The notes under the pieces: generated by a model
The model's database searches: none
The model's input: the letters and a program-made list of their open reading frames with translations, nothing else
What the model was told of the DNA's origin: nothing
Position numbers and translations under genes: made by a program
Shown: positions 32,427 through 64,000 of the stretch, in pieces
How the letters are laid out: each line of letters opens with the position of its first letter
Numbering within the stretch: the first letter of the stretch is position 1
DNA from: a virus
DNA: 64,000 nucleotides
Direction: 5' to 3' (one strand)
IMG/VR virus record: IMGVR_UViG_3300036818_000127
Coordinates: 45,418 to 109,417 of that record

Positions 32427-34442
32427 ATGATAACAAAAAAAGAGAAAGACCTCGAAAAACTGGCACTATGGAATAACCCGATGAGAGCAGCTTTTGAGCC
32501 ACGAACAGAACGTCATATTGTGGCGGCCCCCTCGAATGTCGAGACTACTGAAGAAGCTGTCAACCCTGCTGACCATCCTGTTATAGAATCGCACTCTTCT
32601 GTATGTGTCTCAACTCCAGAGCAGGTCCATGATATTGCACAGCAACTTCAAGGCAATGCTACCTATGTTATGGACCTGGAGACGACAGGGTTAAACCCTC
32701 GACAGAACAAGATCATTACCATAGCATTCGGTACTCCTGATCAGGTCTACATTATTGATGTGAGAAGGTTTCATTCAGCTTCAGAGAGTCTTCGAACTCT
32801 CTGGTGCGAGGCATTGCAGAGGCTCTTTCACCGAGAGGATATTGTGTGGGCTGGGCATAACCTGAAGTTCGACTGGTCTTTCGTGGCTGTCCAGTTCGGG
32901 GTACGGATGAGGCGGGTGTATGACACGATGATAGTAGAGAAGCTAATTCACAATGGCGCGAGGGTTTCTGCATCCCTCAAGAATGCCGCCGCTCGCTATG
33001 GTATTGCTGTCTCGAAGGAAGAGGTCAACTACTTCATTGGTCTGGACCAACGCCCGAAAGAGTGGTCAGCGCCAATCCCTCCTGCCCAGATCACCTATAT
33101 TGAACAGGACATCATTGTCCCCCACCAGCTTATAGCTTCCCAGCAGGTAGAAATAGATAGGCAGTCTTTGGGCCAAGTTATTGAACTTGAGAATGCTGCC
33201 CTCCCAGCAATAGCTTCTATTGAAGTCAATGGGCTACTAGTGGATGTTGCAAGGTGGCGCCATATCCTGGAGGCAAAGCTGGCCAGGAAAGAAAAGTTAG
33301 AAGGGGAATTGAAATCCGTCTTATCAAATGCTCTTGCAGATAAGGCAGAGCAGGATACTGACGGTAAACTTTTTTCAGTACGTCCCGACATCCATATCAA
33401 CCTAGGCTCGCGCGATCAGCTTCTCTCAGCACTGGCATGCCTTGGTGTACGGGTAGATGATACGAAAGCCGAGAGCCTAGAGGAAGTAAAGGGTCAACAT
33501 GATTCTGTGGGCCAGCTATTAGACTGGAAGAACCTTGAAAAGTTCATTACTGCTTTCGGAGACTCTGTTCTCGGGAAAGTTGAAGAGGATAGCCGCATCC
33601 ATGCCACCTTTGAACAGCTAGGAGCAGTGTCTGGTCGGATCATCTGCCGAGATCCAAACCTCCAGCAGATACCTAAGTCCAACAATCATGATGAGGATAT
33701 CCGTAGTTGCTTCGTGGCCCCATCTGGATACAAGTTCTTAGTAGCGGACCTCTCTAACATCGAACTGCGCATCCTGGCCGAGGTATCTGGTGACCCTACC
33801 ATGCTCCGCTTCTTTGATGAAGGAAAGGACCTTCATGCAGAAACAGCGAGGCTTATGTTCAAGCTTGGCCCTGATGTTGATACCAAGAAGCACTTGATCA
33901 ATGGGGTAAAGGCTAGGGATATTGCTAAGACCATCAACTTTGGGATTGCCTATGGTATGGGTCCTGGAGGGCTGGCGGCACGTATCGGAGTTGATCCCGA
34001 TGCAGCTAAGAAGCTTCTCTCAACATACAAAGAGACATACAAGGGAGTAGTCACATACCTAGACCAGTCATCACGGGAGGCAATTAATCAGAAGTATGTC
34101 ACCTCCCTCTCCGGCAGGCGCAGGACCTTTCTCCCAGAAACTCTTGCTGATAGGCAGTCACGCGGAGAGGCAGAGCGAGCTGCAAGAAACCACCCGATCC
34201 AGGGAGCCAATGCCGATATCCTTAAACGAGCATTGGCACTACTCTCTGAACAATTGCCAGAAGACGTGCATATAGTGCTTACTGTACATGATGAAATTTG
34301 TTTAGAGGCACCAGATATTAAAGTAGAGGAAGCAACCAACATCTTAAAAGAGTGCATGATGCAGGCATGTAGGAAGTTTTTACACAGGGTAGAGATACCA
34401 GAGATTGACGTATTAGTAGCAGGATACTGGATCAAGGGTTAA
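32427..34442 (+). CDS. polA: Family A DNA polymerase with 3'-5' exonuclease, 671 aa
   Basis: The exonuclease domain has Asp83 and Glu85 in VMDLETTGLNP, GHNLKFDW near 147-154 and YIEQDIIVPHQ near 222. The polymerase domain has motif A FLVADLSNIELRILAEVSGD, motif B RDIAKTINFGIAYGMG and motif C VLTVHDEICLE. It is shorter than chromosomal Pol I because the 5'-3' exonuclease domain is missing, as in phage and plasmid enzymes. Proofreading and synthesis residues all appear intact. It belongs to the replication module but is under the shared regulon promoter. Confidence 0.92.
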   Translation: MITKKEKDLEKLALWNNPMRAAFEPRTERHIVAAPSNVETTEEAVNPADHPVIESHSSVCVSTPEQVHDIAQQLQGNATYVMDLETTGLNPRQNKIITIAFGTPDQVYIIDVRRFHSASESLRTLWCEALQRLFHREDIVWAGHNLKFDWSFVAVQFGVRMRRVYDTMIVEKLIHNGARVSASLKNAAARYGIAVSKEEVNYFIGLDQRPKEWSAPIPPAQITYIEQDIIVPHQLIASQQVEIDRQSLGQVIELENAALPAIASIEVNGLLVDVARWRHILEAKLARKEKLEGELKSVLSNALADKAEQDTDGKLFSVRPDIHINLGSRDQLLSALACLGVRVDDTKAESLEEVKGQHDSVGQLLDWKNLEKFITAFGDSVLGKVEEDSRIHATFEQLGAVSGRIICRDPNLQQIPKSNNHDEDIRSCFVAPSGYKFLVADLSNIELRILAEVSGDPTMLRFFDEGKDLHAETARLMFKLGPDVDTKKHLINGVKARDIAKTINFGIAYGMGPGGLAARIGVDPDAAKKLLSTYKETYKGVVTYLDQSSREAINQKYVTSLSGRRRTFLPETLADRQSRGEAERAARNHPIQGANADILKRALALLSEQLPEDVHIVLTVHDEICLEAPDIKVEEATNILKECMMQACRKFLHRVEIPEIDVLVAGYWIKG

Positions 34443-41901: not shown

Positions 41902-42726
41902 ATGCCTGTTAAAAAAAGAACAAGAGTATGGACGTTCCTAATCCGCAAAGGGGGTTCGGGCAAAACAACATCTGCTGTGAACTTTGCGACAATACTTGCA
42001 TGTATGCATAATCGCAAAGTCTGCTTAATCGACTTAGATCCACAGGGTAATTCCACTACCCACCTTGGGATTAACCCAGAGATACTTCCTACCTCAGTAA
42101 ATACCCTCTTTACAGAGATTGGAGTTGACCCCCATTCTGTCGTGCAGCCTGTTTTGTTTACCGTCAGCAACAAGGGCTATTCAATTGGTGTCATTCCTGC
42201 CAAGCGGGACCTAGATGAGACTGACCTCAGTATGAAGGCAACGCAGGTAGGGTTACTCAAGCCAATCATCGATGCACTCTCTGAAGATTGTGATGATATC
42301 GTGATTGATACGCGACCCACGCGGAGCATGCTGACTATTAGTGCTCTCATTCCAGCTACCCATGCCATCATCCCTATGGAAGCTGGCGTTTTTGCCCTAG
42401 ATGCGCTCAAGGACACTGAGCAGGATATCAATAATGTGAGGCAAGGGCTTAATCCAGGATTGAAGCTCGTAGGTATTCTACCGACGCGGGTACGTGAGAG
42501 CACAAATCTATCTAGGGTTATCTTAGGAGAGGCTGCGAAGGGATTTGATCATCTACTCATGCGCTACCAAGAGAAGGGAGAATCGCGGTTACTCCTGATC
42601 CATGATAGCGTTCGTCTCGGTGAAGCTCCAGCCTATGGACTTCCTGGAATAGCCTACGACCCCAAGAGTCCAGCTGTGCAGGATTACATCAAGTTCACGG
42701 AGGTACTCCATGCCCAAGAAACCTGA
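41902..42726 (+). CDS. parA: ParA-type partition ATPase, 274 aa
   Basis: KGGSGKTT at residues 16-23 is the deviant Walker A motif. VCLIDLDPQGNSTTHLGI (Walker A' region) and DIVIDTRPTRSMLTISALI (Walker B region, DTRP where DTPP is usual) follow. ParA proteins use ATP and non-specific DNA to segregate low-copy plasmids. It overlaps the next gene by 17 bases, the usual parAB coupling. Confidence 0.88.
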   Translation: MPVKKRTRVWTFLIRKGGSGKTTSAVNFATILACMHNRKVCLIDLDPQGNSTTHLGINPEILPTSVNTLFTEIGVDPHSVVQPVLFTVSNKGYSIGVIPAKRDLDETDLSMKATQVGLLKPIIDALSEDCDDIVIDTRPTRSMLTISALIPATHAIIPMEAGVFALDALKDTEQDINNVRQGLNPGLKLVGILPTRVRESTNLSRVILGEAAKGFDHLLMRYQEKGESRLLLIHDSVRLGEAPAYGLPGIAYDPKSPAVQDYIKFTEVLHAQET

Positions 42727-61386: not shown

Positions 61387-61415
61387 TTGACAACTTGATT
61401 AGCGGCTATTATACT
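61387..61415 (+). promoter_or_regulatory. Strong promoter reading toward the TGCAAC array
   Basis: TTGACA at 61387-61392 and TATACT at 61410-61415 are separated by exactly 17 bases (ACTTGATTAGCGGCTAT), unrelated to the regulon spacer. It lies 89 bases from the nuclease start and points the other way. Confidence 0.75.
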
Positions 61416-61421
61416 CTGCTC

Positions 61422-61735
61422 TGTAATCTTCGGATTGCTTGGGCTCGTGAGCTACGGCTCGGTAGTTGCAGGCCCAATCCCTGGGAGAGTGCCGTATGAC
61501 TTCTGATTCCCTGTTGAGGGATAAGAAGCGAGTCATGGTCATATAGGGTACATTCGTGTGCCTTGTGACTATGCCTTCTCTGATTCCCGATATCGGGAAA
61601 AGGAAGCTTGACACCTTCTGGAGAGAACAACGCCACAAAACCGGAAACGGTACTCGCTTCGCGGTGGCTCCCTTTGGGCCAACTCTCATGTGCAGCACGA
61701 TGAATGAGCAGGGGATGTTGCAACTCTGCTAATCT
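61422..61735 (+). ncRNA. Structured RNA candidate between the nuclease and the array
   Basis: No gene fits this stretch. It folds locally well: TTGGGC/GCCCAA around GAGCTACGGCTC, the palindrome TTCCCGATATCGGGAA inside a larger CCTTC/GGAAG pairing, and CGCCAC/GTGGC around CCGGAAACGG. It contains GTAGTTGCAGG near 61462, whose GTTGCA is the reverse complement of the array motif TGCAAC, and ATGTTGCAAC near 61716. A guide scaffold or tracr-like role is possible. It starts at the promoter above. Confidence 0.5.
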
Positions 61736-61793
61736 ACTGATGCTTTGATGGGATACACTGCTACAGCCTGGCAGTGGGACGGCTCACTCTCAT

Positions 61794-61905
61794 GTTGCAT
61801 TAGAACTTGTTGAGACGCTCCTTTACAACTGAAGGAATGAAGCCTTTCAGTATTTGTTGCATTATGCTGAAATGCGGTTCTACCTGCTCATAGCTAGTTG
61901 TTGCA
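61794..61905 (-). repeat. Inverted-orientation copies of the array motif
   Basis: GTTGCA occurs at 61794, 61856 and 61900, spaced 62 and 44 bases. These are the reverse complement of TGCAAC, which takes over from 62026 onward. The orientation switch marks the start of the main array. Confidence 0.5.
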
Positions 61906-62025
61906 TAGTTGATGAGCAGGTAGGTGTCTATAAGAGAGTCTGTGCAGCTATGTAAGAGGATATATAGCGCAGCATTGCTTGTAACCAATAAGGATAGATG
62001 ACAACATAGAGTATAGGCTGTCGAC

Positions 62026-64000
62026 TGCAACCCGTTACTTGATATGTCAGAGTGTAACTTAGATGGATCTATGCAACCACGGGCTTTTATTTGCAATTGC
62101 AGCAAGCAATATGGCAAGATGCAACAAATGGACAATTTATATGATCCTGCAACCATCAGACAGGGCTACAGCCTGCTCGCTAACCATGCAACCTTGGGAG
62201 AGTTCTGATCGCAATACTGAAGTAGTAGGTGATAATTGCAAGAGGCTGACTGGAAGAGGGAGGGCGCAGCTAGTGCAACCTCAAGCAGTATCAGGGATGC
62301 AACTGATGTGATTGGAGAGGAATGCAGCAACTAGGCACTCCCATCGAGATGCAATACTGGCGATCTATCCATGTAACCATCTTCGTCGGTCCTGCATGCA
62401 ACGTTCTTGACCCTTACTGCAACAAGCAGTTCGCAATCGCAACTTGTATGGTTTAGGCTAGTATTATCCATGTAACTATTGAACGCTGTCCGGCAATGAT
62501 GAGCAACGGTGAAAGGCAAAGTCTAGTGTGCTGCAACTATCTTATAGTCTAGACTAAATGCAATGAATATCAAGGTAAGCCTCGCAACCATTTCAATGCA
62601 ACTAAGAGAAGTATAGGTAGTATAGTGCAACTCACAAATGACGGCAACATCAAGAAGTCACAGTATGCAACCAAGCTACGCGGGACCTTGCAACAACGGG
62701 CAATAGCTATATGCAACAAGAATGTCATATTGGACAGTGCAACAACGAGTAGAAGATTTGCATGCAGCACAAATGAAATACTACATAGCAACATATGGAC
62801 CAGCGATCAAGGGAACTGCAACAAGAGGGCGTTGTCTGGAGGATGTAACACAAGGAGCTAGATAGCGATTGCAACTTTCATAGAGTCACGCAACTGTAGT
62901 AGATGCAATGGTACAAGCTCGTTCACAACTAACATGACACTGCAACAAGCAAGAGACACTGCAACAAAAAGGATATAGGGACAATTGCAATAATCTACGA
63001 TGGCCCCATGCAACCTGATAGAGGAAGATATTCAATAATTGTAACTGAAACCTCCGCAACTATAGAATATGCATTCTAGACTAAGAATTATGCAACTAGT
63101 TGGTTGCTAAGGCATAATGCAGCTATCAGCGGCTAGATATGCAACTTACTTTCAACACACTCTTGCAACATCCATCTCGACATCTCAATTCTATCAATGC
63201 AGCGACTTTGATGTTCCTTACATGCAATGAGTAGAGAAAATGCAACAGCAAAAGAGTGAAGAACGCAACTATCATTGACCAGCTATGCAACTATGGTTCT
63301 CATATCATAATAGTTTATACGCAACTTCTGTAGAGGCATCATGCAACATGTATTGAAAGCATTGCAACCTCATCTGACAGCATCCTGATGCAACATGATT
63401 TCTCTTTGTACATGCATCTCGCAACAACTGGCAATGACATCTACAACGGTAGAGGAATGGGGCATAGCATGCAACTCAGGCAAGTTATCACTGCAACATG
63501 GGGAAGTCTTGCGATATCAATGCAACCAGTGTTCACATACGTGGAAGGAATGCAACATGTTCAATAATATGCAGCCTCAATGGATTTTATGCAACTATTA
63601 GGTAAATAGAGAGCTATGCAACTGATTAACCCTATTCACTCAATATGCAACAAATAGGTGGTACTGCAACACTGATGAGGGTTTTGCATCATCATACCCA
63701 AGATGCAACTATGGCTTTTTGAGGCAACTACGAACATGTCAAATATATGTAACGATCAAGAGAGAACCTAGTGCAACCATGGGCGGGCATGCAATGAGTA
63801 GACATAGCAACAACTGAGTGCAACATTCTTGATCGAGAGAAATGCAACATAAGGGTTATCATAGCAATAGCCAAGCATGAATGATGCAACCATGACAGAG
63901 CAAGCAACACACATGTGGTACATTGCAGCATTGGAAAGCAACTAGAGGGGAAATAAGCAGCAGGTAAACGGAATAATAGATGCAACAATATCTGTAGGAC
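62026..64000 (+). repeat. TGCAAC quasi-periodic array, runs off the window
   Basis: By hand count GCAAC occurs 58 times on the plus strand in under 2 kb, usually as ATGCAAC, TTGCAAC or (A/G)TGCAAC, while the reverse complement is almost absent. Adding one-base variants (GCAAT, GTAAC, GCAGC) fills most gaps, and steps are mostly 15-30 bases, commonly 22-26; four steps in a row at 62644-62713 are exactly 23. The intervening segments, typically 16-21 bases, look unrelated to each other. No credible gene is present. It has the layout of a guide array with a minimal repeat; an array of protein-binding sites is the alternative. Confidence 0.8.

Follow-up and report, generated by a model that had tools for sequence, protein, structure and literature searches.

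Arrays of bare TGCAAC handles in a circular phage genome, probably guide arrays derived from type V CRISPR repeats

The repeat of a CRISPR array is normally regarded as a unit of 25-40 nt, and recombination between repeats is the usual cause of spacer loss. The repeat of Un1Cas12f1 ends in ATGCAAC, as does the one considered here, and engineered Cas12f guides retain little beyond this end. Degeneration of repeats is described as preventing recombination between them (PMC9458426). Among type V systems, silencing by binding after inactivation of RuvC arose repeatedly (PMC12669027), and for Cas12m such binding-based silencing has been demonstrated (PMC11013384).

The locus described here lies in a window of 64,000 nucleotides (G000:45418-109417), taken from an IMG/VR virus record of 109,417 bp. 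The first and last 127 bases of this record are identical and form a direct terminal repeat, which indicates that the record is circular. One end of the window is occupied by an array of the hexamer TGCAAC, termed array 1. It is probably a phage-borne guide array of the tracrRNA-dependent type V CRISPR kind, whose repeats have been worn down to a crRNA handle of 6-7 nt and which would serve RNA-guided binding of DNA.

The same circular record encodes a ParA-like partition protein (window 41902-42726), a phage DNA polymerase (32427-34442) and a major head protein (L007:4117-5400). The phage is probably a phage-plasmid.

Anatomy of array 1 and its leader RNA

Between positions 62,001 and 64,000 of the window, one strand carries 58 GCAAC sites, 43 of them within TGCAAC. 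The remaining window averages 2.5 GCAAC per 2-kb bin (Poisson p ~1e-57 for 58). The array bin has a single GTTGC, the reverse complement, so the motif is strand-specific. A preliminary description of this DNA had reported the one-strand excess, a step near 23 bases, non-repetitive sequence between the motifs and an array running on past the window, and each of these observations holds. The median step is 24 nt, 71 of the 95 steps measure 17-31 nt, and the coefficient of variation of the spacing is 0.39, compared with 0.97 for random placement. Beyond the window, the array crosses the origin and extends to about G000:690 of the circular record, and when common one-base variants are counted it comprises 96 handles in approximately 2.6 kb.

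Of the roughly 96 units, 52 have the hexamer TGCAAC without change, and the remainder are mainly TGCAAT, AGCAAC, TGCAGC, CGCAAC and TGTAAC. A variable segment of 13-24 nt follows each handle; its length differs from unit to unit, and no segment is repeated within array 1. The constant part is only 6-7 nt per unit, and long near-identical direct repeats (about 25-40 nt) are absent. Within the array, the sense strand contains no open reading frame of at least 90 aa, and the hairpin content of the array RNA gives no signal. Features of the locus are listed in Table 1.

Table 1. Features of the array 1 locus (window coordinates unless marked G000)
Feature	Position	Strand	Remarks
Cas12f/TnpB-like effector, 563 aa	59607..61298	-	Divergent from leader; zinc ribbon intact
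Sigma-70 type promoter (TTGACA, 17 nt, TATACT)	61387..61415	+	11/12 matches; reads toward tracr-like RNA and array
tracrRNA-like leader RNA	61418..61680	+	Homologues before array 2 and before the L132 canonical array
Candidate anti-handle GTTGCA, inside conserved stretch GTAGTTRCANGCC	61465..61470	+	Would pair with TGCAAC
Four more GTTGCA, between tracr-like RNA and array 1	61717, 61794, 61856, 61900 (61717..61905)	+	Two in predicted hairpins
Handle-only array 1	62026..64000, across origin to ~G000:690	+	(A)TGCAAC and wobble variants

The promoter-driven RNA that had been proposed beside the array is also supported computationally, by a sigma-70 promoter with 11 of 12 matches and by a folded, conserved leader. 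The fold is strong (z -6.4 for 61405-62030). The leader RNA has no match in Rfam, and searches by exact pattern returned only the relative already known, with none among plasmids. In the copy of the leader that precedes array 2, the candidate anti-handle reads GTTACA instead of GTTGCA. The four extra GTTGCA copies between the leader RNA and array 1 are candidate remnants of repeat 5' ends, or alternatively additional anti-handles.

A stretch neighbouring these extra copies, GTTGAGACGC, is identical to the first bases of the canonical repeat in a related phage contig (L132). At L007:12900-13110 (minus strand), the tracr-like RNA includes a sense stretch that resembles the repeat (GTTACAGGCCGAGCTGCTGGGGAATG versus GTTGCAATGGCTGGCTGCTGGGGGAATG), which would fit a common origin of the leader RNA and the repeat.

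Origin of the hexamer and constraint on the handles

The motif is also dense at G000:31,450-32,900 of the same phage, where it reads GTTGCA and the array, termed array 2, is read on the minus strand. A leader with homology to portions of window 61,409-61,674 precedes array 2, and CRISPR-like 36-nt units come directly behind it. Units of this kind are GTTGCAAGGGTCTAGTCGCTGGGGGATGATTGCAAC, ATTGCAATGGCTGGCTGCTGGAAGAATAATTGCAAC and GTTGCGAGATCTAGCTGCTAGGGGAATGATTGTAAC, and most spacers are approximately 34-38 nt. These full repeats end in TGCAAC, and beyond them only the last six or seven repeat bases persist. When the 34 nt preceding the handle are scored against the full repeat, five units at the leader end reach 36-46, where the 99% point of the null is 18; for almost all later units, the similarity is near the null level. 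Beyond the end of array 2 lies an inverted repeat with a T run (CCCACTTTCA...TGAAAGTGGGTATTTTT), which was read directly and was not listed by a hairpin scanner for loops of up to 8.

A search with the terminase revealed three related contigs of 83-85% protein identity. At the corresponding site upstream of the terminase, a handle-only array is present in two of them (L132, record G001; L133, record G002) and absent from the third (L137, record G003, 91 kb). On its opposite strand, L132 also contains a homologue of the tracr-like RNA, and behind this homologue come repeats, GTTGAGACGCGGCCTGATCGATGGGATCTATGCAAC among them, whose spacers are ordinary. This canonical array, behind the homologous leader, ends in TATGCAAC. 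Canonical and handle-only forms thus coexist in two phages.

The series from full repeat to hexamer in array 2, together with the canonical repeats of L132, identifies the hexamer as the 3' handle of a type V (tracrRNA-type) CRISPR repeat. The hexamer descended from full CRISPR repeats, and a single phage offers a natural series from these to bare handles. The preliminary description had suggested a new kind of guide array that keeps only the crRNA-handle-like end. The part about the handle is supported by the array 2 transition, by the presence of both forms in L132 and by the wobble variants described below, whereas "new kind" is better replaced by an eroded type V CRISPR array.

One-base variants of TGCAAC were pooled from arrays 1 and 2 and from L132, and their counts were compared with expectation. 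Variants that keep pairing with GTTGCA through a G-U wobble are enriched: TGTAAC occurs 15 times (1.3 expected), TGCGAC 7 times (0.8), TGCAGC 21 times (2.6) and TGCAAT 15 times (3.2). Together, the internal variants that keep G-U pairing total 58, with 7.9 expected. Internal variants that break pairing number 18, with 19.5 expected; these 18 include TACAAC, the sole non-pairing internal transition, at 5 versus 2.1. The conditional p value for the wobble-keeping excess is ~1e-17, and for transitions alone it is 0.005. Changes of base 1, at the helix end, are tolerated, and terminal-base variants are enriched as well. Because the enriched variants are those compatible with G-U pairing to GTTGCA, they favour RNA pairing over a DNA-binding site, and the pattern points to a handle that is read as RNA through pairing with GTTGCA.

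Array 1 might instead be a site bound by protein as DNA, such as a centromere or partition site or another protein-binding array. Such sites typically contain iterated short motifs, and the phage does encode the ParA-like protein. However, the parA gene lies approximately 20 kb from the array, both arrays follow a tracr-like RNA, and the 36-nt CRISPR repeats of array 2 terminate in the hexamer. Moreover, the variants conform to RNA wobble pairing for just one of the two strands, a rule that a protein binding double-stranded DNA has no reason to follow. A DNA site is therefore very improbable.

The arrays of L132 and L133 can be aligned over ~630 nt at 90% identity. Substitutions affect 3 of 96 bases in exact handles and 49 of 511 other positions, a modest difference (Fisher p 0.045) that bears on the earlier question of whether segments turn over as motifs stay. 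Six differences separate the L132 and L133 handles, and four of them exchange A and G at base 5, a change compatible with wobble pairing. Differences crowd toward the leader side, with few in the distal half. One guide, ACTGATGAGGRTTT, stands directly after a handle in array 1, array 2 and L132, which exceeds column-shuffled controls, and it is also present in L133. Its recurrence favours maintained guides, and inheritance of one old unit is possible too.

The arrays might also be decaying relics, functionless and old, with the handle being simply all that can still be recognized of the repeat. The confinement of full repeats to the leader end of array 2, fading beyond, would suit such decay, as would segments without known targets in the collections searched and an effector that is probably impaired. 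However, neutral decay would neither keep six bases at regular steps nor limit changes in the handle to wobble-compatible ones. The handles also evolve more slowly than their surroundings, and the array is kept in three related phages. We consider decay without function unlikely.

In an intergenic region of L132 (1260-1680), dense GTGTACGAC and GTCGTACAC words form palindromes.

The adjoining effector and the search for targets

The protein encoded next to array 1 matches models of Cas12f, Cas12u3, CasX and TnpB (PADLOC, Pfam, NCBIfam and PDB) in its RuvC and zinc-ribbon half. Its match to Cas12u1 in this comparison is weak (E 0.003), and it falls below the NCBI cut-offs of every named subtype, with 69 bits versus 450 for Cas12f2 and 71 versus 100 for guided_TnpB. 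In the alignment, D346 of RuvC-I and E432 of RuvC-II are kept. The Asp of RuvC-III, present in four of four compared homologues, aligns with Gly521 of the effector, and an Asp occurs two residues upstream of this Gly. Loss of RuvC catalysis is thus likely, without being certain. The RuvC nuclease that had been noted beside the array is accordingly an RuvC-type effector that does adjoin it, whereas its third catalytic Asp is probably gone, and binding is likelier than cutting. An AlphaFold2 model built from the one sequence reached a pLDDT of 34 and was set aside. The record encodes no Cas1.

The closest long homologues identified belong to 182 Salinibacter phages, at approximately 24-25% identity. 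In the one examined (L009:5860-8330), the homologous gene adjoins an array of 30-nt repeats, GTCGAACTATACCCTTTGGGGTGCTGAAAG, spaced 62-67 nt apart. In Salinibacter ruber plasmid pSR16 (L151:2446-4712), a homologue annotated as a zinc ribbon protein is beside at least five regular repeats. These contexts indicate that the effector family is CRISPR-associated and borne by mobile elements. A search of viral and genome collections with back-translated peptides of the effector found no relatives. In the examined phage and 181 similar Salinibacter phage records, the gene of this family is annotated merely as a hypothetical protein.

No effector was seen in the L132 and L133 fragments examined. This observation would fit an RNA sponge or RNA-based anti-CRISPR, in which the many handles titrate a type V effector or tracrRNA of the host and the segments are only fillers. 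RNA-based anti-CRISPRs are known, and a phage RuvC-dead Cas9 with tracrRNA is also thought to sequester crRNA (PMC11656645). However, the window phage itself encodes an effector and a leader RNA next to the array, fillers need not stay near guide length, and a guide conserved between arrays is not expected of fillers. A sponge is therefore improbable.

Targets of the segments were sought in the phage, in its relatives and in collections of phages and plasmids, and no match above chance was found. Self-targeting was considered and rejected: the matches are at chance level, and the one long match between phages is a vestigial array piece beside a terminator-like hairpin. This piece, TGCAACAGTGTCGTACGTAGCAACC (L132:5440-5480), has an exact counterpart among the units of the L133 array. 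A host search through terminase relatives yielded no cellular genome.

Among the loci examined, only the window phage, L132 and L133 have regularly spaced handle-only arrays in which the steps are not divisible by three. In other TGCAAC-dense viral contigs among the matches listed, the motif belongs to tandem repeats, either coding ones whose steps are multiples of three or one with a 12-bp unit. A contig picked up by its repeat pattern contains a canonical CRISPR array. None of these contigs is of the same kind as array 1. The open-licence literature searched provided no description of handle-only arrays.

Several other viral contigs were encountered in these searches. In one (L155:8420-12130), two canonical arrays with the repeat GTCATCGTCCTTGTGCAACGGGTTTGTAGTTGCAAC flank a gene that has a zinc-ribbon-like end and likely encodes a Cas12 protein; these repeats also end in TTGCAAC. 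Another (L159:3180-3560 and L161:1207-2880) encodes a TnpB-like protein of 557 aa directly beside an array of 36-nt repeats (GTTGCCGTAGACCCACATTTCACCGCTGGCTGCAAC), and possibly represents another step from TnpB to CRISPR. A third (L097:4370-5400) has a 12-bp tandem repeat with GGGATGCAACG, in blocks split by stretches resembling ATAGTTCAAGAACTTTAAA, and is unrelated to array 1.

Proposed working of the array and comparison with known systems

If array 1 is a guide array, the promoter would drive the tracr-like RNA, and the array would be transcribed in the same direction and processed. Each (A)TGCAAC would pair with GTTGCA in the tracr-like RNA, so that the next 13-24 nt could act as a short guide for the Cas12f/TnpB-like protein. 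The complex may bind DNA and block transcription or replication. Because the Asp of RuvC-III is replaced and the guides are short, binding is most likely and cutting less so. With ~96 units in 2.6 kb, the locus might be a heavily multiplexed silencing array, whose targets would be host genes or rival elements.

A guide array is supported by the transition in array 2, both forms in L132, the wobble variants, the slow change of handles, the regular steps and the shared ACTGATGAGGRTTT, and also by the match of the effector to its family, homologues beside CRISPR arrays, the promoter and the folded leader. Against it weigh the targets that were not found, the GTTACA in the array 2 leader and the variable segment length. 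The L132 and L133 fragments without an effector weigh further against it, as does the Asp near Gly521, which leaves the inactivation of RuvC uncertain.

Avoidance of recombination, together with compactness, is a plausible benefit of eroded repeats in these phages. A more tentative idea, which we hold to be possible and rather doubtful, is that a repeat of six bases lets a point mutation or a small duplication create a new guide unit anywhere that is transcribed, without Cas1-Cas2. An adaptation-free, recombination-resistant array of ~96 guides would then programme a cleavage-dead Cas12 relative and silence genes of hosts or competitors en masse.

These phages suggest that about six paired bases per guide may suffice where a tracrRNA supplies the structure. 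If so, array 1 would be a minimal guide array with ~37 guides per kilobase on a mobile element, in which recombination between repeats is unlikely, and it might offer a design for very compact multiplex guide arrays. Because standard CRISPR finders need long repeats, they would be expected to miss handle-only arrays, which may be commoner than is known.

Array 1 lacks long direct repeats, one defining feature of a CRISPR array, and for this reason it is best regarded as CRISPR-derived and CRISPR-like in operation, not as a standard member of a subtype. The V-F and V-U types of type V (Cas12f-like, with tracrRNA) are similar in that an effector with RuvC and zinc ribbon and a tracr-like RNA lie beside the array, and in that the 36-nt repeats of array 2 end in TGCAAC. 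They differ from array 1 in its repeat of 6-7 nt, its guides of 13-24 nt, the lack of Cas1 and an effector under the cut-offs of named Cas12 proteins. Type V-M likewise has a compact type V effector on a mobile element, its RuvC site is altered, as is probably the case here, and Cas12m silences by binding. In contrast to the tracr-like RNA and handle-only repeats seen here, Cas12m works without a tracrRNA, and its repeats are ordinary ones that it processes itself (PMC11013384).

In CreTA antitoxin RNAs and scaRNA, strongly degenerated ectopic repeats can nonetheless direct repression by a Cas effector (PMC9458426). Those RNAs comprise one or two units, whereas array 1 has ~96 regular units in which the handle alone is kept. 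Virus-borne mini-CRISPR arrays are also carried by viruses and are thought to serve conflicts between viruses (PMC11656645), but they use the standard repeats of host systems and few spacers, unlike the long handle-only array. TIGR-Tas systems share a tandem guide array, very short constant parts and an adjoining effector. However, tigRNAs have dual spacers and are independent of CRISPR (PMC12385481). The preliminary description set the array apart from TIGR arrays by its period. Its units have single segments and derive from a CRISPR repeat, and its effector is of the RuvC/TnpB type.
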